64,000 nt of DNA, taken from contig JACNJL010000038.1 in assembly GCA_014382585.1 (NCBI GenBank), positions 83,726 to 147,725 of the forward strand, given 5' to 3'. This document shows, in pieces, positions 15,133 to 52,484 of this stretch. This stretch comes from Limisphaerales bacterium. Lineage in GTDB: Bacteria; Verrucomicrobiota; Verrucomicrobiia; Limisphaerales; UBA1100. Positions within the stretch are counted from its first letter, which is position 1, and every line of letters begins with the position of its first letter. Below the pieces are notes generated by a model. That model did no database searches. It was given only the letters and a program-made list of their open reading frames with translations, and was not told the DNA's origin. A program made the translations under genes and the position numbers.

Positions 15133-16323
15133 ATGAGCGAAGAGCCAGTTTATTATTTCGATAACAACGCCACCACGCGTGTCGCGCCGGAGGTGTTGGA
15201 GACGATGCTGCCGTTTCTCACGGAGCAATGGGGTAACCCTTCCAGCGCGTATACGTTTGGCAATCGCCTCGTGGGGGCGGTGGAGGCCGCGCGCGAACAG
15301 GTGGCGGCGCTGATCAATGCCGATCCGCACGAAATCATTTTCACCAGTTGCGGCACCGAGAGTAGCAATGCCGCGCTCAATAGCGCGTTGCTCACGCGAC
15401 CGGGCAAGCGACACCTTGTCACCACGGCGGTGGAGCATTCGGCCAATATTAAATTTTGCCAGGCCTTTGAAAAACGCGGCGGCGAAGTCACGTGGCTGCC
15501 GGTGGATCGCGCGGGCCAACTGGATGTGCACGAACTGCACGAAGCCATTCGCGAAGACACGGCAGCCGTCACGGTGATGCTGGCTAACAACGAGACAGGC
15601 GTGATTTTTCCGATCGAAGAAATCGCCGCGATGTGTCGTGCCAAGAATGTGCTGTTCCATACCGACGCCGTGCAGACGCCCGGCAAATTGAAGCTCGATG
15701 TGAAATCGATGGGCGTGGATTTCCTTTCGCTCTCGGCCCATAAACTCCACGCGCCCAAAGGCATCGGATTATTGTACGTGCGGCGAGGCACGCCGTGGCA
15801 ACCGTACGTGATGGGTGGCGGTCAGGAAAGCGGCCGACGCGGCGGCACAGAAAACGTCGCGCAAATCGCCGCCTTCGGTCGCGCAGCTGAGTTGGCGATG
15901 GCAGGCTTGGAAAAGGACGCCGCGCGCATCCGCGCACTGCGCGATCGGATGGAGGAAGGCATTATGAGCAGCATCGAAGGGGTCACGCGCAATGGCGCGC
16001 GGGAACCGCGTTTGCTGAACACCAGCAACTTGAGTTTTGCTAATTGCGAAGCGGAGGCAATTTTGTTGCTGCTCGATCGCGAAGGCATTTGCGCCAGCAG
16101 CGGCTCGGCGTGCACCACCGGTTCGCTGGCGCCGAGCCACGTTTTGACGGCGATGGGCGTTTCGCCCGAACACGCGCTCGGCTCGGTGCGACTGAGCCTC
16201 AGCCATTACTCCACCGATGCGGAAGTCGATTTTCTGCTAGAAAAACTACCCGGAATGATTGCCAAACTACGCGGCGCTTCCCCGCGCTCGATGGAGCCCA
16301 CCGCGCAATCCGCCCGATCTTAG
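15133..16323 (+). CDS. nifS: NifS-type cysteine desulfurase
   Basis: Pyridoxal-phosphate enzyme that removes sulfur from cysteine for Fe-S cluster or thiocofactor assembly. 396 residues. The PLP-binding lysine is K204 in SAHKLHAPKG, the cofactor-contact stretch FHTDAVQTPGK precedes it, and the catalytic Cys327 lies in the loop ASSGSACTTG. The N-terminus (VYYFDNNATTRVAPEV) is characteristic of the NifS/IscS group. No iscU, nifU or suf genes are adjacent, so its specific pathway is not shown. Enzymes of this type can also act on selenocysteine; a link with the candidate selenoprotein at 39.3 kb would be speculation. Confidence 0.93.
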   Translation: MSEEPVYYFDNNATTRVAPEVLETMLPFLTEQWGNPSSAYTFGNRLVGAVEAAREQVAALINADPHEIIFTSCGTESSNAALNSALLTRPGKRHLVTTAVEHSANIKFCQAFEKRGGEVTWLPVDRAGQLDVHELHEAIREDTAAVTVMLANNETGVIFPIEEIAAMCRAKNVLFHTDAVQTPGKLKLDVKSMGVDFLSLSAHKLHAPKGIGLLYVRRGTPWQPYVMGGGQESGRRGGTENVAQIAAFGRAAELAMAGLEKDAARIRALRDRMEEGIMSSIEGVTRNGAREPRLLNTSNLSFANCEAEAILLLLDREGICASSGSACTTGSLAPSHVLTAMGVSPEHALGSVRLSLSHYSTDAEVDFLLEKLPGMIAKLRGASPRSMEPTAQSARS

Positions 16324-16394: not shown

Positions 16395-17162
16395 ATGAAA
16401 ACAGTTGTAGCCATCATTGCAGCCATGCTCGTGAGTTCAGCGATTACTTTCGTTGTCACCAGCTCATCCAAACAATCCAATGTCCAAGAGCGAAAGGACT
16501 CGGAGAAAAACGCCCACGGAGAAGAATTGGTTAAACTCCGCAAAAAAGTGCAGGAATTGGAGACCGCAGCCAAATCGCAGGCCGCTATTGTACTCAAGGA
16601 ATCCAACATTCAAGTGCCCGGCGTGGTTACTGATCCGGCGGATCTCATCGACCAACTTTCAGCCGATGGCACCACCGGAGCAGACGTGGAATCACAGAAG
16701 CGAGTGATCCATTATTTTGAAAGCCTCGTGGATGCCGGAGAAACCTCGTTGCCCGCCATCTCTGATTTTATGAATCAACGATTGGACAGAGAATTTGGCC
16801 GCCCCAGCTTCCGCCAACAGCTCAATATCACCAACGCACAAATGGAGGAAATGAAAGCCTTCGGGGAAAAACAAAGGGATGAAATTCGCGCCAAGATGGG
16901 TGAAATAATGGGCAATCAGGAACTGACCCGCGACGAACGCCGCGATAAAATTCGGGAAATCTTCACCGGCGGTGCCGAAAAATTTATGGGACTGATGACC
17001 GACGAACAAAAAGCTCAACTGGAACAAATGGGAGGAGATCAAGGCGACCGTATCCGGATGATGATGCGCGGCTTCGGCGGTGACCGAGGAGGCTGGGGCG
17101 GTGGCGGTGGCGGAGGTGATCGCGGCGGACGAACATTCGGTGGCGACCGCGGGGGGCGTTAG
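16395..17162 (+). CDS. Membrane-anchored LTxxQ-like protein, split N-terminal half of local family
   Basis: 255 residues: N-terminal membrane helix (MKTVVAIIAAMLVSSAITFV), coiled coil at about 30-62, then the family motif RVIHYFESLVDAGE from residue 103. The following segment resembles Spy/CpxP-type LTxxQ proteins (LTRDERRDKIREIF, LMTDEQKAQLEQM). The last 30 residues are Gly/Arg-rich. The first 120 residues match the N-termini of the proteins at 23160 and 24437, which also carry the repeat domain that is a separate gene here (17213). Function unknown; a periplasm-facing scaffold or stress protein is one guess. Confidence 0.8.
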   Translation: MKTVVAIIAAMLVSSAITFVVTSSSKQSNVQERKDSEKNAHGEELVKLRKKVQELETAAKSQAAIVLKESNIQVPGVVTDPADLIDQLSADGTTGADVESQKRVIHYFESLVDAGETSLPAISDFMNQRLDREFGRPSFRQQLNITNAQMEEMKAFGEKQRDEIRAKMGEIMGNQELTRDERRDKIREIFTGGAEKFMGLMTDEQKAQLEQMGGDQGDRIRMMMRGFGGDRGGWGGGGGGGDRGGRTFGGDRGGR

Positions 17163-17212
17163 GCCAACGACCAAGCCAATCAATCTGAAACTCAAATCAC
17201 GAATCCAATACA

Positions 17213-18367
17213 ATGAAACATACGCTTAATATCCTAATTATCCTGATGCTCACCGGAGTTGTCTCCGCTCAACCCGGCGGCGGCCGCCCAGGCGGTGGAC
17301 GCCCCGGCGGCGAACGGCCCGGAGGCGAGCGCCCCAGTCGTCCCGGCGAACCCCAACGCGTGATGCCCATTTCCCTGCGCATCGGCCTCATCGAAACCCT
17401 GGGCCGCATTGGCGGTGCGGATGCCGAAGCGATCCTCGTGAGAACCCTCAAGCAAACACAGGTTGGCGTTGAAGTATCGCTCATCGACCGCCAGCTCACC
17501 AAGCTGGCCGACGGCGCAGAACATCCGTACAAAGACAAAGTACTCAGCGCGGCCAAATACATACTCCGAAATCCGCCTGACGCGGCCAACGATATCCCCG
17601 GCCAACTCGATATGCGCGCCGTGGGTGCTCTGTGGGATATTTTAGTGCGCTACAAAGACACCACCTTCAAGGATGATGCCGAGAAAATGCTTGTCACCGA
17701 AGAAGGCCTCAACCGCCGCGCGCTTGACTACCTCACCCGCGTGCTCGAAGCGCAGTCGGTACCCATCCTTGCCACCGCTTATTATGATGCCAATATTAAG
17801 GATAGCACCAAGAATGATCTGTGGGGACGCATCAACGATTACCTCGACGAATCCCCCGCAGCCGGCACGGTGATGGTGGATCGCTTCAAGGACGGCCTGC
17901 AAAAAATGGCCACCGAAGCGGCCGAAAAAGCCAAACGCGATGCCGAGCGCGCCGCAGGCGGCAACACCCAAGGCGGCGGAAACCGCGGCGGATTTGATTT
18001 CCGTAGCATGATGGGTGGCGGCAGAGGCGGGGGCGCACGCAATGAACTGGTGCGCGACCTCACCCGGCTAGGCGAAGGCAAAGACCTTACCGCCGAAGCC
18101 ATTAACAACCGCCGCGGCATTCTCACGAGCATCAAGGCCACCACCAATGATGAGAACTTTCAAACCATGTTTGTCTCCGTTGAAAAACGCCTCGATGAAC
18201 TCGCCAACCCCACCGAGGAAACCAGCAGCCGATTCCGCATCAGCGACCCGCAGGAAGCCGCCCGCCGCGAAGAAATGCGCAAGCGCCTCGAAACCTTACG
18301 CAATGGCGGAGGCGGTGGTGGCGAAGGCAGACCCACTGCACCGCGCACACCCGGCGGAGGAAACTAA
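17213..18367 (+). CDS. Exported HEAT-like repeat protein, split C-terminal half of local family
   Basis: 384 residues. A signal peptide (MKHTLNILIILMLTGVVSAQ) is followed by Gly-Arg-Pro repeats of the type GGGRPGGERP up to about residue 48. From residue 55 the helical repeat domain begins (LRIGLIETLGRIGGADAEAI) and continues to about 230; it aligns with the C-terminal halves of the 23160 and 24437 proteins (LRLGLLETIAHIGG). A second Gly-rich stretch lies near 260-275 and another at the C-terminus. It is 50 bases behind the 16395 gene and ends at a strong terminator, so the two form an operon. Confidence 0.8.
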   Translation: MKHTLNILIILMLTGVVSAQPGGGRPGGGRPGGERPGGERPSRPGEPQRVMPISLRIGLIETLGRIGGADAEAILVRTLKQTQVGVEVSLIDRQLTKLADGAEHPYKDKVLSAAKYILRNPPDAANDIPGQLDMRAVGALWDILVRYKDTTFKDDAEKMLVTEEGLNRRALDYLTRVLEAQSVPILATAYYDANIKDSTKNDLWGRINDYLDESPAAGTVMVDRFKDGLQKMATEAAEKAKRDAERAAGGNTQGGGNRGGFDFRSMMGGGRGGGARNELVRDLTRLGEGKDLTAEAINNRRGILTSIKATTNDENFQTMFVSVEKRLDELANPTEETSSRFRISDPQEAARREEMRKRLETLRNGGGGGGEGRPTAPRTPGGGN

Positions 18368-18397
18368 GCCAGCTCAAACCCCACATTCATTTCACAG

Positions 18398-18426
18398 CGC
18401 CCCACAGAAACGTGGGGCGTTTTTTT
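18398..18426 (+). terminator. Intrinsic terminator after the split gene pair
   Basis: Perfect 8-bp stem CGCCCCAC/GTGGGGCG with loop AGAAAC, followed by seven T residues. It lies 30 bases past the 17213-18367 stop. Confidence 0.93.
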
Positions 18427-18438
18427 GTGGCCAAACCG

Positions 18439-18957
18439 TTAGGGCATCGGCCGATCGTCCAGCCGCCGCTGCAGGCAAACCACATCCCGCCATTCGCCAA
18501 ACTTGCAGCCCGCCTCTGGAAACACCCCCGCCTGTGTGAAGCCGTGTTGCGCGTGCAGTTGCAGGCTCGGTTCATTGCCCGCATCAATCGTCGCCAGCAC
18601 CACGTGCAGCTGCCGCGCGCGCCCCGCCTCCATCAACTTACCCAATAACCGGCCGCCGATGCCCTGCCGCCGATGCCGCTCCGCCACGTACACCGCCACC
18701 GCGCCGGTGAAGCGAAATCCCATCCGCTCCTGATGCGGCCCCAGCGAGCCCCAGCCCACAATCACTCCGTTTGATTCCGCCACCAAAACGGGAAAATTGC
18801 GCCCCGAAAAATGATCAAACCATTCCTCCCGTTGCGCCAGCGTGTGCGGCACGTCTTCATACGCCGACGCCGGCTCGCGCACGGCGGCATTATAAATCAC
18901 CAAAATCCCCGGCACATCCTCGCGCAACGCCGGCCGAATTTTTACAGCATCGCTCAC
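18439..18957 (-). CDS. GNAT N-acetyltransferase, phosphinothricin-acetyltransferase-like
   Basis: 172 residues from the GTG at 18957, giving (M)SDAVKIRPALREDVPGILV, the usual N-terminus of this GNAT subfamily. The acetyl-CoA pyrophosphate loop is RRQGIGGRLLGKL, preceded by the strand GAVAVYVAERH. The C-terminal LQLHAQHGFTQAGVFPEAG is typical of Pat/Bar-like proteins, which acetylate small amines or methionine derivatives. An ATG at 19038 would add 27 residues partly encoded by a palindromic repeat and is rejected. No neighbours indicate a substrate. Confidence 0.86.
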   Translation of the reverse strand: MSDAVKIRPALREDVPGILVIYNAAVREPASAYEDVPHTLAQREEWFDHFSGRNFPVLVAESNGVIVGWGSLGPHQERMGFRFTGAVAVYVAERHRRQGIGGRLLGKLMEAGRARQLHVVLATIDAGNEPSLQLHAQHGFTQAGVFPEAGCKFGEWRDVVCLQRRLDDRPMP

Positions 18958-19003
18958 CCACGCAAGAAACCACACGGCCCCAATCGGCACGAGCCTTTTT
19001 GCT

Positions 19004-19051
19004 GTAGCCCGTGCCGGTGGCACGGGCCCCCGGCCCACCGGGCCGGGCTAC
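19004..19051. repeat. REP-like palindromic element (family A, copy 1)
   Basis: GTAG, hairpin 1 CCCGTGCC-GGT-GGCACGGG, one C, hairpin 2 CCCGGCCC-ACC-GGGCCGGG, then CTAC. Both stems are perfect 8-bp. The outer tetranucleotides pair with each other and the loops GGT and ACC are complementary. The same plan recurs at 43099-43146 and 50361-50407. Confidence 0.85.
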
Positions 19052-19146
19052 AAAAAACCAAAGCGCCAGAACCTCGGGAGGGCGATGGTTTTTGCCAGTT
19101 TGACTCCCTGCACTTTTCCGCTATCCTCCGCGCCCCAATTCAATCA

Positions 19147-20151
19147 ATGAGCAAACGCAAATACAATGTAGCCGTCGTGGGCGTGACCGGTGCCGTGGGG
19201 CAGGCGATGCTGCGCGTACTGGAGGCGCGACGCTTCCCCGTGGACCAACTCGTACCGCTCGCTTCCAAGCGCAGTGCCGGCAAGCGCGTGCGTTTCAACG
19301 GCAAACAAATTACCGTGCGCGAACTCACGCACAATTCGTTTGATGGCGTGGACATCGCACTCTTCAGTGCCGGCGGCGACATCAGCAACAAGTTTGCGCC
19401 CGCGGCCGTAAAAGCCGGCGCGGTGGTGGTGGATAATTCCAGCGCCTTCCGAATGGAAAAAAATGTGCCGCTCGTGGTGCCGGAAATCAATGGCGCGGAT
19501 GTGCCCAAACATCACGGCATCATCGCCAATCCCAACTGCAGCACCATTGTCACGCTGATGGCGTTGCATCCGTTGCACGCGGCGTTTGGCGTGAAGCGGA
19601 TTTTTGCGGCCACCTATCAGGCCGTGTCGGGCAGCGGTGCGCAGGGGATTGTGGAATTGGAATCGCAGGTGAAAGACCTCGCGCGCGGACGCAAAATTTC
19701 AAAATCAGTTTACCCTCACCAAATTGCCTTCAACGCCCTGCCCCACGTGGATGCCTTTCTCCCAAACGGCTACACAAAGGAAGAAATGAAACTCGAAAAT
19801 GAAGGCCGTAAAATTTTGCATCACGCACGGTTCAAAGCCAGCACCACCTGCGTGCGCGTGCCGGTGTACCGCGCGCATTCCATTGCGGTGAACGCGGAGT
19901 TCGACAAACCCGTCACTGTAGCCGCAGCGCGCCGGGTTTTAACCAAAGCCCCGGGACTGGAACTGATCGATGACGTATCCAAAAACATTTACCCGCTGGC
20001 GCTGGAATGTGCTGAAAAAGACAACTGCGCCGTGGGCCGCATCCGCAAAGATTGCGCCATGAAAAACGGCCTGAGTTTTTGGGTCGTTGGGGATCAAATC
20101 CTCAAAGGCGCCGCGCTCAACGCGGTGCAAATTGCGGAGGAACTCGTTTAA
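19147..20151 (+). CDS. asd: Aspartate-semialdehyde dehydrogenase
   Basis: NADPH-dependent conversion of aspartyl phosphate to aspartate semialdehyde, the branch point to lysine, threonine, methionine and diaminopimelate. 334 residues. The nucleotide-binding GVTGAVGQAML is at the N-terminus; the catalytic Cys131 lies in NPNCSTIV; substrate-binding RVPVYRAHSIAV is present. The start gives MSKRKYNVAVVGVTG, the standard N-terminus. Its stop codon overlaps the stop of the convergent 20148 gene. Confidence 0.96.
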   Translation: MSKRKYNVAVVGVTGAVGQAMLRVLEARRFPVDQLVPLASKRSAGKRVRFNGKQITVRELTHNSFDGVDIALFSAGGDISNKFAPAAVKAGAVVVDNSSAFRMEKNVPLVVPEINGADVPKHHGIIANPNCSTIVTLMALHPLHAAFGVKRIFAATYQAVSGSGAQGIVELESQVKDLARGRKISKSVYPHQIAFNALPHVDAFLPNGYTKEEMKLENEGRKILHHARFKASTTCVRVPVYRAHSIAVNAEFDKPVTVAAARRVLTKAPGLELIDDVSKNIYPLALECAEKDNCAVGRIRKDCAMKNGLSFWVVGDQILKGAALNAVQIAEELV

Positions 20152-20912
20152 CGCACCTGCGCTATTGAAGCGGCCCCACCGGATTGGGCTTCCGCTCCAC
20201 CCTTGGAGGAGGATTCAGCGGAACTGCTGGAACTTGAGTTCCCTTTTGAACCCCCTTTAAAACTCCCTTCATTGCCTGTTCCTTCTTTGGCCTTTTTTGT
20301 GCCACGCTCAAAACGCTTATGCGCGTGTGTATTGATGGCCGGGGCTCTGCTGCCCGATGTAAAACGTGCCACGGGTTGGCGCATCCTCAGAGAATAACGC
20401 ATGCTTTGGCCCACGGTGCGGGCGGCGCGAGTGCCAACTATGGCTCCGCGGCGAGCACTGGATACAGCCACTCTTGACTGCCTGCCACGCACGACCGCAT
20501 TGATCGCGCTGCGCGGTTGGGTGTTCACGACCACCTTGGTATTGGTTTTCTGCTGTTGCTTTTTCTGAGTGGTTTGCTGGGTTTGAGTTATCACTTTGGA
20601 TTGAGTCGCGTTACTGGATTTGCCTTGGGTTTTACCCAGACCCGCTTCGCTGGCCCCCACTGAAGTTTTCACAGGATCGTTTTTGGATTTACTGCTCGAC
20701 TGCTGCTTTGAAACCAACGAGCCTGACGTGCCGTTCATCTGGGTGGCGCTCCCACCGGAGGTCACCATTTTGCCACCGGAACTCGAACTGCCGCCCGAAG
20801 ACACCGCTGCGCGGCCCAACTCCACGATGCCAAATACCAACATCGAAAAAACAACGATGCCAATCATCATCGGAGGAAATCTTTCTTCAATAAGCTTTCT
20901 CACTGCGTTCAA
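20148..20912 (-). CDS. Single-helix membrane protein with low-complexity tail
   Basis: 254 residues. One membrane helix near the N-terminus (PMMIGIVVFSMLVFGIVEL) is followed by a long Ser/Gly/Thr/Lys/Gln-rich region that looks disordered (SGGSSSSGGKM, QTQQTTQKKQQQK) and a Ser-rich end. No domain is recognised. Codon usage is like the surroundings and the hydrophobic segment is well formed, so I accept it as coding, but its low complexity makes homology-based naming impossible. Convergent with asd, with overlapping stop codons. Confidence 0.62.
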   Translation of the reverse strand: MNAVRKLIEERFPPMMIGIVVFSMLVFGIVELGRAAVSSGGSSSSGGKMVTSGGSATQMNGTSGSLVSKQQSSSKSKNDPVKTSVGASEAGLGKTQGKSSNATQSKVITQTQQTTQKKQQQKTNTKVVVNTQPRSAINAVVRGRQSRVAVSSARRGAIVGTRAARTVGQSMRYSLRMRQPVARFTSGSRAPAINTHAHKRFERGTKKAKEGTGNEGSFKGGSKGNSSSSSSAESSSKGGAEAQSGGAASIAQVR

Positions 20913-21059: not shown

Positions 21060-21641
21060 ATGAATTTCAGCCTAACCATTTTGCTGCTGCTAATCACCCC
21101 CGCGCCCGCAAAGGTGGCGGATACCGGCTTGGCGCTGCCGGATTTACGCGGGCGCGAGATCACGCCATTGCGTGCGCCGGGCAAAAAAAACAAGCAGCCC
21201 GCCGTGCTTGTGTTCACCACCCCCGATTGTCCGGTGGCCAATAAAATGGTGCCGGAGATTCGGCGCATCGCAAAAGATTTTAATGGGCGCGCACAATTCA
21301 CGCTGGTGTATGTGGATCCTGAGTCCACTCCCAAAACACTCGAGCAACATCAAACTGATTTTGCGTTGGGCAACATCGCCGGCGTGCACGATCGCCAACA
21401 CCGGCTCGTGCGCACGGTAGGTGCCACGGTAACGCCCGAGGTGGTGGTGGTGCTGCCCGATGGCGCCATTGCCTATCGCGGGCGCATCAATAATTTTTAT
21501 GAGGACTTCGGCAAACCACGCCGGGTGATCACCCAACACGACCTGCGCGATGCCCTCACCGCCGTGCTCGCCGGACGGCCCGCACCCAAGCCGCGCGGCG
21601 AATGCATCGGCTGTTTCATTCCCAAACTAAAGCGCCAATAA
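21060..21641 (+). CDS. Exported redoxin (thioredoxin-like) protein
   Basis: 193 residues with a short signal peptide (MNFSLTILLLLITPAPAKVA). The thioredoxin-like core has VLVFTTPDCPVANKMVPE with Cys57 in the first active-site position, but no second CxxC cysteine; then TLVYVDPE and TPEVVVVLPDG, the cis-Pro region. The C-terminus has a CxxC (C182, C185 in GECIGCFIP). Proteins of this type often sit beside cytochrome/PHM-like proteins, as here: the next gene starts one base after this stop. Probable role in extracytoplasmic thiol or copper chemistry. Confidence 0.84.
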   Translation: MNFSLTILLLLITPAPAKVADTGLALPDLRGREITPLRAPGKKNKQPAVLVFTTPDCPVANKMVPEIRRIAKDFNGRAQFTLVYVDPESTPKTLEQHQTDFALGNIAGVHDRQHRLVRTVGATVTPEVVVVLPDGAIAYRGRINNFYEDFGKPRRVITQHDLRDALTAVLAGRPAPKPRGECIGCFIPKLKRQ

Positions 21642-21642
21642 A

Positions 21643-23163
21643 ATGAAAACCACCTTGTTCAAATTGATTGCACTCACCAGCCTCGCCGCATTGCCGGCGC
21701 GGGCGGAAGTGACTTTCACCCAAGACGTCGCGCCGATTATTTTTAATAATTGCACTTCCTGCCATCGGGCCGGCGAGGCGGCGCCGTTTGAGTTGATCAA
21801 CTTCAACGACGTACGCAAACGCGGGCGGTTGATTGCGCGCGTCACCGAAGACCGCGTGATGCCGCCTTGGCACGCGAAGAAAAGTTCATTTGCCTTTCAC
21901 GGCGACCGACGGCTTTCGGACAAACAAATCAAAACCATCAGCCAATGGGTGGAGGCGGGGATGCCCGAAGGCGATGCGGCGCAGTTGCCACCCTTGCCCA
22001 AGTTCACCGCCGGTTGGCAGCTGGGCAAGCCGGATCTCATTGTGAAAATGACCGAACCCTTTTCCGTGCCGGCCGAGGGCCGCGATATTTATCGCAGCTT
22101 CGTCGTGCCGCTGAATTTGCCGAATGATAAATGGCTTAAGGCCGTGGAGTTCCGGCCCGGCGCGCGGGCGGTGGTGCATCACTGTTTGTTTTCGTATGAC
22201 ACCACCGGCGAGGCGCGCCAACTGGATGCCGCGGACCGTCAACCGGGTTTTCGCCGCATGCGCAGGCAGGGGCGCGGTGTGGGCTCGCTGGGCGGCTGGG
22301 CGGTGGGCGGGCAGCCGCGTCCGTTGCCGGCGGATCTTGCGTGGCATCTGCCCAAAACCGCAGACTTGGTTTTGAATATGCACTACCATCCCAGCGGTAA
22401 ACCCGAGATGGACCAATCCACGATCGGATTTTATTTTACGGACAAGCCGCCACGCACGGCGTTCACAGGCGTGCAATTGCCACCGGCATTTGGCGCGCTC
22501 TCGGGCGTCGATATTCCACCCGGCGATAAGGCGTACAAGGTGACCGACAGCTTCACGCTGCCCATCGCGGTGGAGGCCTTTGCCATCAGCGCACACGCGC
22601 ATTATCTCGGCAAACATCTTCAGATGACCGCCACCTTGCCGACCGGTAAACAATTGGATTTGCTGAACATCCCCGACTGGGATTTTTCGTGGCAGGAACA
22701 ATATCAATTTAAAGAATTCATTCAGCTCCCCAAAGGCACGCGATTGGATTCCACGGTGATTTGGGATAATTCCGCCGCCAACCCGAACAATCCCAGCGTG
22801 CCACCGTCGCGCGTGCGATGGGGCGTGGAGAGCGACGACGAAATGGGCTGCCTCACCCTCCTCTGCCGCCCCGCACCGGGCGAGCGTTATGCGACCTTGA
22901 CCTCCGCGTACTTCCGGCACTTCGCCGAGGTGCGCACCCGCACAGCGCGCGAAATGGCCGCACGCGCACAGGGGCCCAACGGCGATCGTATACTCGATGC
23001 GTTCCTGCGCCGCAATGATCGCAACCGCAACGGCAAAATCGATTTGAACGAAGCCCCGCGCTGGTTACAACCGGCGTTTGACCGGGCTGACAAAAATAAA
23101 GATAAAGCGCTCGATGCCGCTGAATTAAAAGCGGCCCGCGATCGTTTAAGAATAAATCAATGA
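21643..23163 (+). CDS. Cytochrome c / PHM-like copper oxygenase / EF-hand fusion
   Basis: 506 residues, exported (MKTTLFKLIALTSLAALPARA). Domains in order: a cytochrome-c-like segment with C37-TSC-H41 (NNCTSCHRAGEAAPFE) and PPWHAKK; a region like copper type II ascorbate-dependent monooxygenases with candidate copper ligands in VVHHCLFSYD, NMHYHPSGK and SAHAHYLGKHL; and C-terminal EF-hand-like loops DRNRNGKIDLNE and DKNKDKALDAAE. The reaction is unknown; family logic suggests oxygen-dependent oxidation with external electrons. It overlaps the next gene by four bases (ATGA). Confidence 0.85.
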   Translation: MKTTLFKLIALTSLAALPARAEVTFTQDVAPIIFNNCTSCHRAGEAAPFELINFNDVRKRGRLIARVTEDRVMPPWHAKKSSFAFHGDRRLSDKQIKTISQWVEAGMPEGDAAQLPPLPKFTAGWQLGKPDLIVKMTEPFSVPAEGRDIYRSFVVPLNLPNDKWLKAVEFRPGARAVVHHCLFSYDTTGEARQLDAADRQPGFRRMRRQGRGVGSLGGWAVGGQPRPLPADLAWHLPKTADLVLNMHYHPSGKPEMDQSTIGFYFTDKPPRTAFTGVQLPPAFGALSGVDIPPGDKAYKVTDSFTLPIAVEAFAISAHAHYLGKHLQMTATLPTGKQLDLLNIPDWDFSWQEQYQFKEFIQLPKGTRLDSTVIWDNSAANPNNPSVPPSRVRWGVESDDEMGCLTLLCRPAPGERYATLTSAYFRHFAEVRTRTAREMAARAQGPNGDRILDAFLRRNDRNRNGKIDLNEAPRWLQPAFDRADKNKDKALDAAELKAARDRLRINQ

Positions 23164-24437
23164 AACAACTCATCGCCATCTTCGCCGCCGCATTGGTGGG
23201 CGGCGCCGCCACGTTTGTCATTACCTCGGGCAACGACACACCCGCGCGTGCCGACCACGAAAACTTCGCGATCCACGACGAAAAACTCGCCGAACTGCGC
23301 CGCGAAAATCAAGCTCTCAAAGCGCGCCGCAACATCCCGGAGATCATCGAAATTGAAGCGCCCCCCGTAACGCCGGAAGCGCCCATAACGGATGCCACGT
23401 TTTATTTGGACAAACTCAAGGAACTCAAACCCGACGACGGCCGCACCAAACGCCGCGCAGTACATTACTTTGAATCGTTGGTGGATTTGGACGACACCGC
23501 GCTGCCGCCCATCGGGGAGTTCCTCGCCGCCAGTCAGGATTTGGAATTTCTAATGCCAGCGGAGCCGCGCCCCGAACCGCGCAATGAAGACGAAGCCCGC
23601 CGCCGCAAATGGCGCGAAGGTGAGGCCGGCCGTTACTTCCGCCCCTTTCCGAAACCGGATAATTCCTTCCCGCCCACGCTAAGGCTTGGCCTTTTGGAAA
23701 CCATCGCCCACATCGGCGGCAACTCCGCCGAGACGTTGCTGCTTAAGGTGCTGGAAAAAACCCTGCGAGGCGTGGAGGTCGCTTACCTCGAAATTGCCCT
23801 GCAGGAAATCGCCCCGGATCAATACCTCGACCGCATCCTCGCCGTCACCCGCGCCATCCTCGCCAATCCGCCCGCGGTGGCCGAGGACGCCGGCGAATTG
23901 GACCGCCGCACCAAGGGTTATCTTTATTCCATTCTCGTGAAACACAACGACCGCATTTTTGTGGATACCGCTAAAGGGTTGCTCATTACCGAGGATGGCT
24001 CGCTCGATGGCTACGCGCTTTCGTACCTGCGCCAAGTGCTCGGCGTGGACGCCATGCCCATTTTGCTTGCGGCCTACAAAGATCCGCGCATCACCAATGA
24101 ATTTCACAAAGCCGCCCTGCGCGATGCCGCCCTGCGCTTCATCGGCACCAGCGCCGAGGCCGATGCCATTTTTCACGAGAGCGTGAAGGAAGGCCTCGCC
24201 AAAGTGAAGAAGGGCGATATGTTTGACTTCAAACGCTACGAGCACATCGCCCAACCACTCGGCGCGTTGATGCGCGATGTGCACGAGCAACCCGTGCACG
24301 TCATCACCGCCCGCCGCAAACTGCTCGGCGATGTGCGCAAACAATCCAGTGACATCCTCCTGCAATTCGGTTTCTCCGCTATGGACAAACGACTCGGCGA
24401 AGAACAAAAACGCAGGCAATCCGGAGACCCCAAATAA
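23160..24437 (+). CDS. Membrane-anchored HEAT-like repeat protein (local family, fused form A)
   Basis: 425 residues: membrane helix (MKQLIAIFAAALVGGAATFV), coiled coil to about residue 56, then RRAVHYFESLVD at 98-109 and a helical repeat domain starting at LRLGLLETIAHIGG (from 174). It is 1 base from the next gene and overlaps the cytochrome/PHM gene, so the three are translationally coupled. Sequence blocks match 24437-25768 over the whole length and match 16395 (N-terminal half) plus 17213 (C-terminal half). The protein probably acts at the outer face of the inner membrane as a binding scaffold; no catalytic motif is seen. Confidence 0.82.
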   Translation: MKQLIAIFAAALVGGAATFVITSGNDTPARADHENFAIHDEKLAELRRENQALKARRNIPEIIEIEAPPVTPEAPITDATFYLDKLKELKPDDGRTKRRAVHYFESLVDLDDTALPPIGEFLAASQDLEFLMPAEPRPEPRNEDEARRRKWREGEAGRYFRPFPKPDNSFPPTLRLGLLETIAHIGGNSAETLLLKVLEKTLRGVEVAYLEIALQEIAPDQYLDRILAVTRAILANPPAVAEDAGELDRRTKGYLYSILVKHNDRIFVDTAKGLLITEDGSLDGYALSYLRQVLGVDAMPILLAAYKDPRITNEFHKAALRDAALRFIGTSAEADAIFHESVKEGLAKVKKGDMFDFKRYEHIAQPLGALMRDVHEQPVHVITARRKLLGDVRKQSSDILLQFGFSAMDKRLGEEQKRRQSGDPK

Positions 24438-25768
24438 TGAAACAAATCATCGCCATCCTCGTCGCCACCTTCGTGGGCGCCGCCGCCACATTCATCCTCA
24501 AATCCCCTGCCGCCACCTCAGCCGGATTTGACGCGGAAAAGGAAAAACTAAAAGAACAAATCGCCCGGCTACGCGGTGAACTCAAAAATACCGATGCCCA
24601 AGGCAACCGCATCACCACGGTTGAAACAGAAAAAGTCATCACCGTCACGGCCCGAATCCAGCCGGAGGAAATTTTGGAGGAACTCAAAACCATGCGCCCC
24701 GGCGATGAGAACCGCCAACAAACGATGCGCCGCGTCATCCATTATATGGTGGGCCTCACCGATGCCGGCGAAGCCGCCTTTCCGGCGATCAAAGCATTTT
24801 TGTTGCAGGAAAATCCCGTGGACATCGAATACGAATCCAACGCCATCGCCTTCGACCGCGAACAAGCCGCCGCCGCCGCTGCCAAGGCCAAAGGCGAGGA
24901 CGCCACGCAAGGCCGCATCAGCGGCTTTGTACGATCGGGCTTTGGCACCTATTTCATGTCTCGCGAACTCCTCAAACAAACCCGCCAACTCGCTCCGCGA
25001 TCATTGCGCCTCGGCCTGTTGGACGTCGTGGCCGACATCGGCGGCAACCCAGCCGAGGCCATTCTCGCCAATGTACTCGCCAAAACCGGCCGAGGCCTTG
25101 AGGTGGCTTACCTCGACGGCTTGCTCGAAAAAATCGCCGGCGATGCCTATCGCGATCAAGTGCTCGAGACCGCCCATTTGCTCCTCAAACATTCCCCCAG
25201 CGGCGATGCCGCCAGCCTTTTCGACGAAACCTCACGCGCCTATCTCTTTGCCCTGTTGGTAAAATACCGCGACGCCACCTTCGTCGACATCGCTAAAACC
25301 CAAATCATCACCGCCGATGGCCGCGTCGATGGCGCCGTCGTCCACTACCTCACCTCCGTCCTCGGCGAAAAAGCCGTTCCGCTTTTGTACGCAAAAATAA
25401 ACGACAAAAGCCTCACCGATAACGGCGACAAAATGGCCCTCGGCGATGCCATCCTCAAACACGTCGGCACCAACGCCGACAGCGACAAATTTTTCGCCGA
25501 AGTCATCACCGACGAAAAACTAGGCACCATTCGTTTCATGGCACTGGGCCACCTTATGGGTGGCGACAACTCCGAGCAAACCCTCCGCAACCGCCAAAAA
25601 CTCATCCAATCCATCCAAGCCGATTCCAAAGACGAAGGCCTCAACCGAATGCTCGAAGGCACAAACAACCGCATCGAAGTCATGCTAGACCCCACCAAAG
25701 CCGGCACCCTAAACACCGGCGGCGGCCCCGCCGGTTTGCTCGAACTCTTCAACCCCGGCAACAAATAA
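24437..25768 (+). CDS. Membrane-anchored HEAT-like repeat protein (local family, fused form B)
   Basis: 443 residues. Its N-terminal helix MKQIIAILVATFVGAAATFI is almost the same as that of the preceding gene. It then has a coiled coil, RRVIHYMVGLTDAGE from about residue 98 and the repeat domain from LRLGLLDVVADIGG (about 190), with GRGLEVAYLDGLLEKIAG aligning to GVEVAYLEIALQEIAP of the neighbour. Start and stop codons of the two genes overlap by one base (TAATG). The pair is a tandem duplication within the operon. Function unknown. Confidence 0.82.
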   Translation: MKQIIAILVATFVGAAATFILKSPAATSAGFDAEKEKLKEQIARLRGELKNTDAQGNRITTVETEKVITVTARIQPEEILEELKTMRPGDENRQQTMRRVIHYMVGLTDAGEAAFPAIKAFLLQENPVDIEYESNAIAFDREQAAAAAAKAKGEDATQGRISGFVRSGFGTYFMSRELLKQTRQLAPRSLRLGLLDVVADIGGNPAEAILANVLAKTGRGLEVAYLDGLLEKIAGDAYRDQVLETAHLLLKHSPSGDAASLFDETSRAYLFALLVKYRDATFVDIAKTQIITADGRVDGAVVHYLTSVLGEKAVPLLYAKINDKSLTDNGDKMALGDAILKHVGTNADSDKFFAEVITDEKLGTIRFMALGHLMGGDNSEQTLRNRQKLIQSIQADSKDEGLNRMLEGTNNRIEVMLDPTKAGTLNTGGGPAGLLELFNPGNK

Positions 25769-29329: not shown

Positions 29330-32233
29330 TCAATGCCGAAACCGAAACTCCGTTGAGGTCATCAACCCCCAGGCCATCTCGCGGATGGCATCGGAGCGGT
29401 TTTTGTTTTGAGCGGTGAGGTGTTGTGCCACGGCCGCAACTTCGGCGGATGTCGGGCGGCGGGTAAGTATGGAAAGATACAATTCCTCCGCCAGCATCTT
29501 GGGGTCCGTCAATTGATTGAGCCGCCCCGCCAGCGTGCCTGTCCAACTTCGCACCGTGCCCCCGTTGGCAAAGTAAAGAGCCTGGTCGGCCGTCGCATAA
29601 AAATCCGTCTGGACCTCGCCCGCCGCACCGCCGAAGAGTTTGATGAAAATTGCCGTGTTGCCTTTCAGCTTATCATAGATAAATTTTTCCACGTGCGTTG
29701 CTCGCACCAACCCCCGCGCGGGGTCTTCCTTTGCTCCCTCCTTCAACGGATTCTTTTTGTCAAAATCCGCGAGCGCCGCCGCGCGTTGGGTAGCCACCTG
29801 GCCGCTGGCGCGCAACATACTCCAGCACAGTTGTTCAGGCGTAAGATGCGCAAAACCGCCGACCCCAAAATTATTCGCCCACCGACGGCCCAATGTTTCC
29901 GTTGCCGCAGCCACCGCCGCACCGGCTTCGTTGGCGATCGCTTGCACATCAACCAATTCCGCGGCTAATTTCCCTGTGCGCTTTTGCGCCTCTGCCAACT
30001 TCGCTTCAGCGACTGCCACGGCGCGAGTAGCCGAATCGAGTTTCCCTTGGGCGGATTGTTCAGTTGCGACGCGCCCATTGACTTCCTGCTGCGCGCGGAC
30101 CACATCCCGATCCACCAGCTTCTGTAACGCCTGCAACGTGGCAATGGCATCCCGCGAGCGGGCGACGGCATTTGTCACGGGAGCCTGCAATTCGGTGACG
30201 GTGGCGAGAAAGGGTTGAGTAACCAACGCGGCAGCTTCAGCGGCGAGCTTGGCACTCGAGATGGCATTGACCACGGCGGCGGCGGCGGTTTTGGCGTGGG
30301 CTTGTTTTTCGGAAAGTGTTTTTTGTGAGGCAGCCAAAACTTGAGCCGAGGCGGCGTGTTCCTTTTGCGCGGCAACGCGGGGAAATTGCAGTTGAGCTAA
30401 AACGATGCTGAGCGGTTCCTCCTCGGCTTTGGCAGCGGCTAATTGTTTCGCGGCATCATTTACTTTGGCGATTGCAGCGACTTGAACGTTTTGCGATCGG
30501 GCCAACTCGACCATGGCTTGCGCGTCCTCCAACCGACGAATGGCGCGAGCCTCAAGGTGCATTGCGCGTTCGCGACCGCGGGCGGCGGCCTGCCATGCAC
30601 GGTCGAGTGACTGCACTTGCTTGTCGATCACTGCCCAATTGGCGCGGGAGGCATCACTGATTGTTTGGGCGGCATCCAATTTTTCGGCGGCCGTCTTGGC
30701 GGTGGCCGTTTTGGTGATAGTGTCTTTTTGCGCGGCAGCAACTTCGGCGGCCAGTTTATCGACCTTGGCTTTGAGTTTGGCGGCGGGGTCAGCCAATTCC
30801 TTGTCATCCTTGAATTCATCCGCCACGGCTTTGGCCTGTGCGGCAAGGGCAGCCACTTTTTTATGCGCGGCTTGTTTGTCGGTTAATTTTTTCTGTGCAG
30901 CTGCTAATGCTTTACCAGCTGCATCGCTGGATTTTTTGGCCGTGCTGACAGGGTTAAGGGTTTTGTCCAACACACCCTGCGCGGCATATCGTTTGCCTCG
31001 GGCGACGGCCAAGGCCTCGTATGCCTTGTCGAATGCGGCCTGCGCGATTTCGGTTCCGGCATTTAATTTTTTCTGTTCAGTTTCCAGCGTGGGAATCAGG
31101 GCTGTCGGTTTTATCTGCGCAGGCAAATCGAATTGGCGCTGATAAGTTTGCGACAAGGCCAATTCGCGCAGGAAAACGCGCACATCATAGTTATGGGCGG
31201 CAAATTCATCGGCCAATAATCCGAGCAATTCTGGGTGAGCCGAGGGGTTGCCGGTATGCAGTCCGTCACGCGGCTCCACCAGCGCGCGGCCCATCATATG
31301 GCCCCACAGGCGGTTGGCGATGTTACGGCCGAAGTACGGGCTTGCGGCGGCGTGTTTGGCGAGTTGGGCGCGGCGGCTGTATTTGGGAATGCCGCGGAGG
31401 TTTTTGTTCTTTGGATTAGGTGCCACCTGCCATTCGTCGCCGAGGGAAAAGACGGGTTCGGTAATTTCAAAATCTCCGGGGACGCGCGGACGCATGCCTC
31501 CGGAGATTTCGGTGAAGACGCTCTTGAATTTGGCTTCACCGGTGGCACGCTCGGCCAGCACGGCGGGTTTTTGGGCGTCGGGCCTAAACACAAAACTGCG
31601 GCTCACGAAGGCGTAGATTCCGAAGTAGTCGCGTTGATAATAATCGTCAATGTTCGGGTGGTCGTGGCATTGGGCGCACTGGAGGTCCATGCCGAAAAAT
31701 TTGCGGGCGAGGTCGCGAGTCACGAGATTGGGTTCGGCTTCGCGATCAAGGATGAATTTGGCGGCGGCGTGCGGGATGCCCGTGCGATTTCCGTCGGTGC
31801 CGATGATTTCGCCGGCCATCGCATCCCAAGGTTTATTGGCAGCAAACGCGTCTCGCAAATAACCGCGCCATGCGGGGGTTTTCACATATTTATCCGCGCG
31901 GCGCTCCATGAGCATCACGTCGAACACCGTGGCCATATGACGGGCATATTCCGGCGAAGCCAGCAATGCATCAATGGCGGCGCGGCGTTTGGTGGCCGAC
32001 GTGTCATCAATGAAATCGCGGGCCTCGGCGCTGGAGGGAATGCGGCCAGTGAGATCGAGGTGCAGTCGGCGGATGAATTCTCCATCACTCGCCTGCCCGG
32101 CCAGCGGGCCCACCTGCCCCGCCGCCACGTGGCGATCGATGCGCACGTGGAAGGGCAACCCATCCGCCGCCGTCGCGCCCCATACAGGCAGCAGGGTTAC
32201 AATCAAAAATAATCGGGCTTTGTGCACGTTCAT
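29330..32233 (-). CDS. DUF1549/DUF1553 cytochrome-like protein with long coiled-coil insert
   Basis: 967 residues from the ATG before MNVHKARLFLIVTLLPVWG (signal peptide). DUF1549 (PSCyt2) covers about 25-230, with FIRRLHLDLTGRIPSSAEA and the heme-like motif C186-AQC-H190. The DUF1553 (PSD1) domain starts near 280 (RNIANRLWGHMMGRALVEP) but is interrupted at about 375. From there to about 770 the chain is an Ala/Lys/Glu/Gln-rich coiled coil. DUF1553 then resumes (HLTPEQLCWSMLRASGQ, EELYLSILTRRPTSAEV) to the end. First gene of the operon with DUF1501 and WD40. Function of the family is unknown. Confidence 0.9.
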   Translation of the reverse strand: MNVHKARLFLIVTLLPVWGATAADGLPFHVRIDRHVAAGQVGPLAGQASDGEFIRRLHLDLTGRIPSSAEARDFIDDTSATKRRAAIDALLASPEYARHMATVFDVMLMERRADKYVKTPAWRGYLRDAFAANKPWDAMAGEIIGTDGNRTGIPHAAAKFILDREAEPNLVTRDLARKFFGMDLQCAQCHDHPNIDDYYQRDYFGIYAFVSRSFVFRPDAQKPAVLAERATGEAKFKSVFTEISGGMRPRVPGDFEITEPVFSLGDEWQVAPNPKNKNLRGIPKYSRRAQLAKHAAASPYFGRNIANRLWGHMMGRALVEPRDGLHTGNPSAHPELLGLLADEFAAHNYDVRVFLRELALSQTYQRQFDLPAQIKPTALIPTLETEQKKLNAGTEIAQAAFDKAYEALAVARGKRYAAQGVLDKTLNPVSTAKKSSDAAGKALAAAQKKLTDKQAAHKKVAALAAQAKAVADEFKDDKELADPAAKLKAKVDKLAAEVAAAQKDTITKTATAKTAAEKLDAAQTISDASRANWAVIDKQVQSLDRAWQAAARGRERAMHLEARAIRRLEDAQAMVELARSQNVQVAAIAKVNDAAKQLAAAKAEEEPLSIVLAQLQFPRVAAQKEHAASAQVLAASQKTLSEKQAHAKTAAAAVVNAISSAKLAAEAAALVTQPFLATVTELQAPVTNAVARSRDAIATLQALQKLVDRDVVRAQQEVNGRVATEQSAQGKLDSATRAVAVAEAKLAEAQKRTGKLAAELVDVQAIANEAGAAVAAATETLGRRWANNFGVGGFAHLTPEQLCWSMLRASGQVATQRAAALADFDKKNPLKEGAKEDPARGLVRATHVEKFIYDKLKGNTAIFIKLFGGAAGEVQTDFYATADQALYFANGGTVRSWTGTLAGRLNQLTDPKMLAEELYLSILTRRPTSAEVAAVAQHLTAQNKNRSDAIREMAWGLMTSTEFRFRH

Positions 32234-32275
32234 TGGATTGCCGTGCGGCACAGATATTCACTGAGGTTTGGGCGA

Positions 32276-33464: not shown

Positions 33465-34211
33465 TTTGATGGGCGAAAAATCCGTGGCGTTGAGATAAAT
33501 GCGCTCTGGCCGTCTGGAGAGAATTTTGCCATCGGCCTCGGAGGCAGCTCGGGCTTTTTTCCAAGCCGGATCGCCACCAAAGCCGCTCCAATTCTTTTTG
33601 GCCTGATCCGTATTGCCGAAATGGGAAATGATGTAGATCAGCGTATTGGATTTACCCTGGTTGGCATCCATTGGCGTCCAGTAGGCGACATTCGTCATGT
33701 CATGATTCTCGAAGATCTTACAAGTATGGTCGCGGAATCGTGCATGTAGATTCTTCAACCGCTCAGGGGCCGTGGTGTAGGTGCGCAGCTCGAACGTACG
33801 GATTTTTTTGGTTATGACGGGCTTTACGAAGGGTGAGTAATCGGTGGCACTCATAAAAATACTATCGACCTTGGCGACCAACGCACCATCTTGGGTTGAG
33901 GCCTTATACGCCTTTTTCCAGTCTGGATTATTCAGAAAGGCCTGCCATGATTTCTTGTGTGCCTCCCGACTGGGCGAGCTAATTACATAAATCAACCGGT
34001 TATCGGATTGATCAACCGGCACCCAGTATCCCACGTTGGTGAGCCCGTGCTTTTCAAATAATTTGCAGGTGTGGTCGCGAAATCGCGCATTGAGTGCCTC
34101 GAGCTTACCCTCGGCCGCCGTGTAAATACGCAGCTCATAACAGCGCGTGTCCTCCGCCAAAACCCCAGCGGCCAACAGCAAAAATGCAAAGAAAGGAAGA
34201 ATGCGTTTCAT
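33462..34211 (-). CDS. Exported tandem NIPSNAP-domain protein
   Basis: 249 residues with signal peptide (MKRILPFFAFLLLAAGVLAE). Two NIPSNAP domains in tandem: first CYELRIYTAAEGKLEALNAR with DHTCKLFEKHGLTNVGYWVP, second FELRTYTTAPERLKNLHAR with DHTCKIFENHDMTNVAYWTP. NIPSNAP domains have a dimeric alpha/beta-barrel fold; their role in bacteria is unclear. The partial protein at the right end of the window carries the same domain at its C-terminus. Start chosen for the signal peptide. Confidence 0.9.
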   Translation of the reverse strand: MKRILPFFAFLLLAAGVLAEDTRCYELRIYTAAEGKLEALNARFRDHTCKLFEKHGLTNVGYWVPVDQSDNRLIYVISSPSREAHKKSWQAFLNNPDWKKAYKASTQDGALVAKVDSIFMSATDYSPFVKPVITKKIRTFELRTYTTAPERLKNLHARFRDHTCKIFENHDMTNVAYWTPMDANQGKSNTLIYIISHFGNTDQAKKNWSGFGGDPAWKKARAASEADGKILSRRPERIYLNATDFSPIK

Positions 34212-34316
34212 GTGTGCGGAAATGTTAGGGCCCGCCGTCTGAAAGGCAACTGAAAAGAGATGTCCGTTGGGTTCGATTTTGCAAATCGGCAATGCCTTGC
34301 GTTATTCAGCCAACTC

Positions 34317-35153
34317 CTACTTTACCCTCCGTGGTGAAGCTGCGTTTCGTGAATTGGTAATTTCGGACGGGATTAGATCGTAGCCTTGTTTGCGCCCTCC
34401 CATTAGGCGGTTGAAAACTCGTTGAGTTGTTTTGCTTGGATGCCTCAGCCCTAAATTGTGTCCCAACTCATGAGCACAAGTCCGCCCAATAGATCCAATT
34501 TTGAATGGCCGTTGTTCGAAAACAGGAAACCGGATGGGAGGCCTAGTCCCTCCCGAAGGTTTATCGGTCCAAACCCCGACCACTGCACGGTTGTTTCCTG
34601 TGCCGGAAGCATTGCCTTGAGAGGTTTGTCCGATATAGGGGAAAAGGTATAAATTAAACATATCCGGCCGGAAATTACGCTTCGGAAAAAAACTATAAAT
34701 ATGCGGAATGCGCGATGGGTCTGATCGCCCGTTCGCATCTCGCTTGGCGTTAAGAATAACGTTTACACTTGAATGAGTGTCGATAGTCCTTTGCAAAGGT
34801 GTGCTAATGATTTTTTCGAGTTCCCAGCTAATGTTCGCCTGTTTCCAAATCCTGTTAATTTCCGGGAGTAGATACTGTGAAATGTGTTGAGGATTGACCC
34901 ACATGTCCATTTTCACGCCGCGCTTTTCCATGACTAGATCGGTTAGTATATGAACTCTCAACGGCAATACCATCAATTCATCTGGTCGAGGCGTTGGAGT
35001 CCGTGTTTGAGCTAATTCCGGGCCGGGCTCAGCATTGGAAGGCGTTGCATCTAGTAGTTGAATTGAATCGGTTTCCTTGTCGCATCCAGCGAGCATCAGC
35101 AAGGCCGATATCATCCAAGTTGTGAAACTAAAACTAGTGAATCGTAATTTCAT
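34317..35153 (-). CDS. Metzincin-like zinc protease lipoprotein
   Basis: 278 residues. A lipoprotein signal ends at LAGC (Cys24). The extended zinc motif HELGHNLGLRH is at 228-238, with H228, H232 and H238 as ligands and E229 catalytic, the pattern of metzincins. The upstream NLYLFPYIGQTSQGNASG and VVGVWTDKPSGG fit the active-site strand region. Probably a surface endopeptidase. The gene belongs to an AT-richer block unlike the surrounding chromosome, so recent acquisition is possible. Confidence 0.82.
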   Translation of the reverse strand: MKLRFTSFSFTTWMISALLMLAGCDKETDSIQLLDATPSNAEPGPELAQTRTPTPRPDELMVLPLRVHILTDLVMEKRGVKMDMWVNPQHISQYLLPEINRIWKQANISWELEKIISTPLQRTIDTHSSVNVILNAKRDANGRSDPSRIPHIYSFFPKRNFRPDMFNLYLFPYIGQTSQGNASGTGNNRAVVGVWTDKPSGGTRPPIRFPVFEQRPFKIGSIGRTCAHELGHNLGLRHPSKTTQRVFNRLMGGRKQGYDLIPSEITNSRNAASPRRVK

Positions 35154-35174
35154 GTTACTTCATTGCGTTGTGAC

Positions 35175-35426
35175 TCATCTTGCTCTTCGGCAATGTTCTT
35201 CCAGCTCGTTAATCTGAGTCTCGGTGAGTGCAGATCCCCTGCCGGGGCTCAAAAATGTTTTAAAGAAATGGACTTCTTTCCCATCAATCTTCCAAGGCCC
35301 ATCATCAACCTGCTTGCCATTCTTGTAAATCTCAACTACTGCATTTTCAACGCAAGACATATTTGTATTGCCCGTCTTCATAGCTGCCAGCAATTTTTTC
35401 TTCAGGGCTTTTCTATACCCCACCAT
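35175..35426 (-). CDS. Small hypothetical protein
   Basis: 83 residues. The sequence MVGYRKALKKKLLAAMKTGN is followed by a strand-like stretch (VVEIYKNGKQVDDGPWKIDG) and a basic end. It ends 21 bases before the metzincin-like gene on the same strand. I do not recognise a family. Coding is plausible from the strand pattern and position but not certain; it could be the remnant of a longer gene. Confidence 0.42.
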   Translation of the reverse strand: MVGYRKALKKKLLAAMKTGNTNMSCVENAVVEIYKNGKQVDDGPWKIDGKEVHFFKTFLSPGRGSALTETQINELEEHCRRAR

Positions 35427-35587
35427 CCTGACTCAGAGAAGTTTTGAGGACCATCATCAATGAGGCATTGAGAGAACGGGGCTCTGAATGACGTTCGCTG
35501 CGTTGAAACTAACCTAAGGACAGGAAACACTCTGGGCCAAAATAAATTTATGTTGAATCAAAAATCATATTTATTTATGATTCTGCC

Positions 35588-36223
35588 ATGAGGATTGCTT
35601 TGTTCATTGCTCCACTGTTCTTCTTGATGCTCACAGAAAAAGCAGACGCGTTTGTATGGTCATTTGGGGGTGAAAAATTCGAGAAAGTTGAAGATTTACC
35701 CGACACTGATGACTACCGTAATGAGAATGGAGTATATCAAGATGCTTATGTAATATATAAACACGGTTGGATTTTATGGATACCATTATGGAATTGGGAT
35801 GCACGTTATGTGCTATCGAGCGGCGGAGGAATGTATTATGAATTTGCTAATAAATCCGACGTAGCCCTGCTGGCCTTAACATATGGCCCACCCGACAAGG
35901 CTATACCGTTTTGGGAGAGTGTCGGCGGTAAAATTTTGTGGGGTGTTGTTTTGTTAATATGGGCATTTGTTAAGTTTGGTGGCGGTATGATCGCATCTTT
36001 CAGAAATACTAGTCAACAAACAGCATACGTTCAGCACCCTCCACCTTCGATAGGTTTCCCAAAAGAAATCCTAATCTCGAGAAATGGCCAACAATACGGG
36101 CCATATTCACATGAACAAGCCAAAGCGATGCTCTCATCTGGGGACCTTATTGACTCTGACAATGCTTGGTTTCAGGGCGCCGAAGGTTGGATGCCCCTTC
36201 ATCAAGTTCCAGGAATCAGATAA
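35588..36223 (+). CDS. Exported membrane protein with C-terminal GYF_2 domain
   Basis: 211 residues. A signal peptide (MRIALFIAPLFFLMLTEKADA) is followed by an aromatic-rich extracytoplasmic segment, a membrane helix near 115-135 (ILWGVVLLIWAFVKFGGGM) and a C-terminal GYF_2 (DUF4339) domain from about 160: NGQQYGPYSHEQAKAMLSSG and AWFQGAEGWMPLHQV. GYF-type domains bind proline-rich peptides. The gene is AT-rich compared with the flanks. No neighbour suggests a partner. Confidence 0.8.
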   Translation: MRIALFIAPLFFLMLTEKADAFVWSFGGEKFEKVEDLPDTDDYRNENGVYQDAYVIYKHGWILWIPLWNWDARYVLSSGGGMYYEFANKSDVALLALTYGPPDKAIPFWESVGGKILWGVVLLIWAFVKFGGGMIASFRNTSQQTAYVQHPPPSIGFPKEILISRNGQQYGPYSHEQAKAMLSSGDLIDSDNAWFQGAEGWMPLHQVPGIR

Positions 36224-52388: not shown

Positions 52389-52484
52389 AAAGCCGCGCAA
52401 GATGCGCAAATCAGAGCTTCACGGCAAGGTAAAGTTGACGGAAACAAGTTGTCCCGCCGGGAGAGTGTGAAAAATGCGCGTAAA

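Follow-up and report, generated by a model that had tools for sequence, protein, structure and literature searches.

A two-gene variant of a family of predicted periplasmic solenoid proteins in an uncultured verrucomicrobial order

The window analyzed here, a stretch of 64,000 nucleotides from the genome of a Limisphaerales bacterium, carries at 16395-18367 two open reading frames, P0001 (the N-half, 255 aa) and P0002 (the C-half, 384 aa), which are separated by 50 bases with a frame offset of 2. An earlier note on this DNA had listed both, together with two related frames further downstream, and all four were found at the places it gave (Table 1). Its description of the second gene was also confirmed: the Gly-Arg-Pro repeats are encoded by a 15-base tandem repeat, and a signal-peptide-like N-terminus comparable to that of P0002 was seen, by eye from the alignment, in 12 of 12 aligned C-halves. 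Across 11 genomes the two halves lie 6-53 bases apart. This spacing, the absence of a terminator-like site from the gap in the window and the presence of one just after the C-half fit a single transcript, and the halves are probably co-transcribed; terminator-like sites in the region numbered 6, where shuffles led us to expect 4.9.

Table 1. Features of the split locus and of its surroundings, in window coordinates
Feature	Position	Strand	Remarks
NifS-type cysteine desulfurase (Pfam Aminotran_5)	15133..16323	+	upstream synteny anchor
N-half gene (P0001, 255 aa)	16395..17162	+	membrane helix, coiled coil, VIHYFESLVDAGE helices, LTXXQ-like unit, Gly/Arg tail
Part of N-half homologous to first third of one-gene members	16395..16793	+	residues 1-133
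LTXXQ (Spy/CpxP-type) helical unit of N-half	16803..17033	+	residues 137-213; none seen in one-gene linkers; hhalign 98.6%
Gly/Arg/Asp-rich C-terminal tail of N-half	17034..17159	+	residues 214-255
Gap between halves, 50 bases	17163..17212	.	no terminator-like site inside
C-half gene (P0002, 384 aa)	17213..18367	+	signal peptide, GRP repeats, remaining solenoid
Signal-peptide-like N-terminus of C-half	17213..17269	+	ends ...VSAQ; read from alignment
15-base tandem repeat, 4.2 copies	17273..17335	+	encodes Gly-Arg/Glu-Pro repeats of C-half
Helical-repeat block of C-half homologous to one-gene members	17357..17917	+	residues 49-235
Terminator-like hairpin and T run	18396..18421	+	directly 3' of C-half; 10 pairs, 7 G-C
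GNAT acetyltransferase	18439..19038	-	between split pair and Asd-like gene
Aspartate-semialdehyde-dehydrogenase-like (Asd-like) gene	19141..20151	+	start approximate; downstream synteny anchor
One-gene paralogue A (P0003)	23160..24437	+
One-gene paralogue B (P0004)	24437..25768	+

The minus strand carries a Ser/Lys/Gln/Gly-rich low-complexity frame (20148-20912) that has no Pfam match and, close to its start, a single membrane-helix-like stretch. At 21060-25768 the two one-gene paralogues follow a thioredoxin-like gene and a 506-aa gene whose only Pfam match is to EF-hand near its end; all of them run head to tail, with overlaps of 4 bases and 1 base. Homologues of the thioredoxin-like and 506-aa genes also adjoin one-gene pairs in two other genomes (G001, G007), and these shared neighbors, with the overlaps, suggest an operon. 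Elsewhere in the window, 29330-32251 encodes a DUF1549/DUF1553 protein in which the DUF1553 match falls in two stretches and which has a long, Ala/Lys-rich segment of coiled-coil appearance. Two stretches are AT-rich (34001-36000, GC 0.457; 52001-54000, GC 0.431; about 0.57 elsewhere), the second containing two frames with no Pfam matches.

One-gene members of the family consist of an N-terminal membrane helix, a coiled coil, "HYFESLVD" helices and a predicted HEAT/ARM-like solenoid. Aligned with P0003, residues 1-138 of the N-half matched at 37% identity (E 1.3e-15) and residues 43-232 of the C-half at 39% identity (E 4.1e-30), bearing out the claim that the two blocks recur in the split as in the one-gene version; the N-half also matched further paralogues of the window's genome. 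Thus the N-half holds a block (membrane helix, coil and HYFESLVD helices) and the C-half another (the LRxGL... helical repeats) that are each homologous to the P0003-like family. At 16395-18367 these blocks do not share one polypeptide, and the pair is a split variant of the family, not a typical member. The genome-wide paralogue count that the earlier note had proposed gave nine family loci, eight of them one-gene members and one this two-gene member.

The earlier note had raised the objection that such similarity might be of a generic HEAT-like kind. Pfam HEAT_2 was found in only one of 12 C-halves (E 0.086), and near-invariant positions are common to the whole family, split and one-gene members alike. 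Both observations indicate that the similarity of the halves to the one-gene paralogues, which is far above chance, is specific rather than generic. Weak matches of C-halves to Luciferase_N and Activator-TraM (6/12 each; best E 6.5e-6 and 1.2e-4, respectively) fell on helical or charged stretches, with P0002 itself below cut-off, and were taken as chance. The family has no name in the collections used, as the earlier note had supposed: neither half, nor P0003 or P0004, scored above any Pfam or NCBIfam cut-off. A PHROGs search returned nothing useful, and no description of the family was found in the titles and abstract openings of open-licence literature, which was the literature searched.

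Family members were detected in 17 of 20 relatives, the window's genome included, and in 55/146 genomes of the order. In a phylum-wide set of 288 genomes only three matched, one being the window's genome. The other two matches (L149 and L150, in G164 and G270, from one other family) covered only the last ~100 profile positions and were not recovered with another profile. The difference between 55/146 and 3/288 points to a protein family confined largely to one order.

A structural model of P0003, of high confidence, was all-helical (pLDDT 91, from 51 sequences). A Foldseek search with it gave no match at E<=0.001 (best E 7e-3). HEAT/ARM alpha-solenoids, among them E. coli YibA (1oyz), PP2A B56 subunits and importin alpha, aligned with its residues 73-425 at VIA-align Z values of up to 11.4, a level that a common arrangement may suffice to explain. 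The earlier note had confined the helical repeat domain to the second half; since the solenoid match begins at about residue 73, that is not supported, and the break would separate the first solenoid helices from the rest. The model of the N-half was poor (pLDDT 56) and found no structural match at E<=0.001 in the fold search. The best reading of the one-gene protein is a predicted inner-membrane-anchored periplasmic solenoid, which may have a scaffold or client-binding role.

The N-half is homologous to one-gene members up to about residue 133, and the C-half from about residue 49 (PISLRIGL) onwards; the replaced segment is therefore the linker, which in P0003 covers residues 131-170. One-gene copies that occupy this syntenic slot in the nearest other families, f8 and f50, have linkers that are 23-31% glycine with GDRGG-type stretches, and the linker of a one-gene copy that stands beside the split pair in one genome (G008) is 25% glycine. 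The break falls in a variable linker, one that in the nearest one-gene relatives is glycine-rich already. Other one-gene linkers are mostly poorer in glycine, f32 and f12 being glycine-rich too, and f32 illustrates that Gly-rich stretches can arise repeatedly, a caveat on inheritance of the linker.

The earlier note had spoken of new low-complexity tails on the split version. The tails are present, but their newness was not upheld, as the linkers of the f8, f50 and G008 one-gene copies are already Gly/Arg/Asp-rich at the position of the break. On these grounds the N-half's Gly/Arg tail and the C-half's GRP head probably derive, in part, from the two flanks of a Gly-rich linker present in the ancestor. 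What is new at the break is the LTXXQ unit on the N-half and the signal peptide on the C-half. The earlier note had pointed out the LTxxQ-like segment, and profile-profile comparison substantiated it: hhalign aligned the unit with LTXXQ units of the window's genome (PF07813, related to Spy/CpxP) at a probability of 98.6% (E 1.1e-15), whilst 30 column-shuffled controls all stayed at or below 0.4% and reversed controls were clean as well. One EF-hand-like member, described below, was left out of this comparison. Pfam LTXXQ itself gave weak matches to seven of the 12 split N-halves (E<=0.1; best 5.1e-4); P0001 lies below its gathering cut-off (15.8 vs 24.3 bits), and the G006 orthologue reached 25 for LTXXQ only if summed with its neighbors in frame.

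In the G008 N-half (genus g3, L058:2298-2975) an EF-hand-like Gly-rich tail, DKDGDGKIDDNE, replaces the LTXXQ unit and gave one EF-hand_1 match (E 0.014). Weak matches to this tail were seen on G000:C53 and G000:C26; on the former, a single frame (L146) has EF-hand-like motifs and Gly-rich stretches as well as a weak match to LTXXQ, the same modules that are seen on split N-halves. The string AQPGGG was considered as a marker of LTXXQ genes and dropped, as it occurs at only two places in the window's genome, in the C-half and once on C22.

The distribution of the two forms was compared across genomes. In the host family, f1 (n = 20; 13 genomes in a first set and 7 added later), both halves were present as separate frames in 15 genomes, including one (G007) in which they lie at the ends of two contigs, and their order was constant wherever both share a contig. 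Two genomes (G002, G443) showed a C-half alone, truncated by the start of its contig, and in three (G440, G441, G445), whose assemblies are 61-81% complete, neither half was seen. An assembly or sequencing artefact could be entertained because the genomes used all appear to be drafts, but it is barely credible given that the two-gene form recurs in 15 f1 genomes and has gained sequence on either side of the break. A recent frameshift, programmed recoding or readthrough joining the frames was ruled out, since the offset between the halves is 0, 1 or 2 depending on the genome (11 genomes). Rough dN/dS values within genus were 0.04-0.34 per block, with dS near saturation for many pairs; values this low in all blocks indicate that neither half is decaying and that both are under purifying selection.

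Of 49 matching genomes outside f1, 39 were read, and the cleanly readable copies in them were all one gene. Exceptions to clean reading were G013, where one copy runs across two contig ends with a shared overlap, and G085, where the N and C parts lie in overlapping frames in a frameshift-like arrangement. The weak-match genomes left unread were G015, G031, G036, G056, G067, G073, G113, G116, G136 and G146.

Gene order around the pair gave a direction to the change. Split pairs in f1 stand between a NifS-type gene on one side and GNAT/Asd genes on the other; among 12 such loci, the NifS gene adjoins the N-half in 11 (not in G009) and the Asd gene lies beyond the C-half in 11 (the contig of G006 ends earlier). 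A one-gene copy stands directly downstream of a NifS homologue at 13/54 loci outside f1, in nine families (f8, f14, f22, f23, f24, f38, f48, f50 and f52), and is followed immediately by Asd at 4 of these 13; outgroups therefore carry a single gene at the orthologous position, the mark of gene fission. G008 preserves both forms in one row: NifS, N-half, C-half, one-gene copy, Asd.

Trees were built with 12 split rows, the contig-edge C-half of G002 being excluded and the later g5 genomes being absent; five frames, of G025, G085 (two), G098 and G065, were removed beforehand, and a further set of 52-row trees had eight divergent or second-paralogue rows removed. In the C-block tree the split rows lie inside an f1 expansion that is in turn enclosed by one-gene relatives from families f8 and f50, and the 52-row trees agree that split rows are nested among one-gene forms. 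The earlier note had recognized that fission or fusion had occurred and left the direction open. With one gene everywhere readable outside f1, a one-gene copy in the same slot and split rows nested in the trees, the pair is read as a product of fission, not fusion. An ancestral pair of separate genes, fused on many occasions, is very improbable: the existence of both forms is all that favors it, whilst among the genomes read f1 alone has split forms, which nest within one-gene forms, and the same slot is filled by one-gene copies in nine other families.

The number of events is less certain. In maximum likelihood trees a one-gene clade from seven genomes, around G000:C38:27214, falls within the split rows and groups beside those of g2/g4 (96/88; 98/88 in the joined tree), a placement expected if the slot had undergone fission twice independently, or if a single fission had been followed by re-fusion in this clade. 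A single split origin was, narrowly, not rejected (AU p 0.114 for the C block, 0.096 joined). The linkers of the clade are also short and non-glycine (24-25 aa in 6/7; 20 aa in G009), with no remnants of an LTXXQ unit or signal peptide, so that a second fission or a re-fusion, though possible, seems to us rather less probable than one event. A separate topology, uniting the G008 one-gene copy and the split rows in one clade, was rejected (AU p 1.2e-5), which means that this copy and the split pair are not immediate sisters.

Taken together, we consider it likely that a duplication was followed by fission of the NifS-adjacent copy in the f1 ancestor, giving two exported chains that probably reassemble in trans. 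The ancestral single gene would have encoded an inner-membrane-anchored periplasmic solenoid protein and lain between nifS-like and asd-like genes. After it was duplicated, the nifS-adjacent copy would have been broken inside the glycine-rich linker in the ancestor of f1, within an uncultured verrucomicrobial order. The N-half would have retained the membrane helix, coiled coil and first solenoid helices, with the LTXXQ unit replacing the linker, and the C-half, otherwise cytoplasmic, would have gained a signal peptide. Probably transcribed together, both products should be exported and meet in the periplasm, given the membrane helix on one and the signal peptide on the other. There the anchored N-half would cap the secreted C-half and rebuild the solenoid, probably with the LTXXQ module near the joint as an extra chaperone-like or adaptor module.

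The same fission may instead have been followed by a loss of cooperation, leaving a membrane-tethered LTXXQ protein and an independent secreted solenoid. Each half does have new material and its own export signal, and the N-half tail is exchangeable, as its EF-hand-like form in G008 illustrates. However, wherever contigs permit, the halves remain neighbors in an unchanged order, and the N-half retains the helices that start the solenoid in the one-gene model, which makes such independence unlikely in our view.

Splitting an exported protein requires a second export signal at once, and such fissions are hard to achieve. As a tentative and rather doubtful route to the favored fission, we suggest capture of a junction between two genes: a cassette reaching from the end of one LTXXQ gene (LTXXQ unit, Gly-rich tail, stop) over the intergenic gap and into the next gene (start codon, signal peptide, AQPG...GQRPGGG head) would have recombined into the Gly-rich linker via Gly-rich repeats. 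If so, one event would have supplied the stop, start, tail and export signal needed for a viable fission. The window's genome contains tandem LTXXQ genes, one beginning with a signal-AQPGEGKGQRPG stretch, and relatives in f1 have further genes of this type.

Preserved among these genomes are the state before fission, a single gene that has a Gly-rich linker and occupies the same slot; the state after it, two apparently exported halves; and, in G008, both side by side, which makes the route of fission testable. All aligned C-halves, moreover, carry a conserved signal peptide, an argument for the repeat domain acting outside the cytoplasm and a first functional hint for a family with no Pfam or NCBIfam name.

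Among known systems, the predicted solenoid may share the overall fold of HEAT/ARM proteins; P0003 differs in having a membrane anchor and coiled coil, and showed no sequence match to solved structures. The added unit of the N-half is homologous to the LTXXQ family, yet here it occurs once, at the end of a protein that is membrane-anchored and, at full length, is not a member of that family. The nearest published case found is the fission of the type IV pilin PilA in Geobacter (GSU1496/GSU1497), in which an exported protein with an N-terminal membrane helix is split into two usually adjacent genes, with the break in the loop after the helix and duplication then separation proposed (PMC5174107). 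That protein is unrelated to ours, and the portion of the report drawn on here describes no added chaperone-type unit (PMC5174107). Fission of exported proteins is already known; what is different here is the added chaperone-type unit, a Gly-rich break site pre-existing in one-gene relatives, and the preservation of synteny before and after the split.
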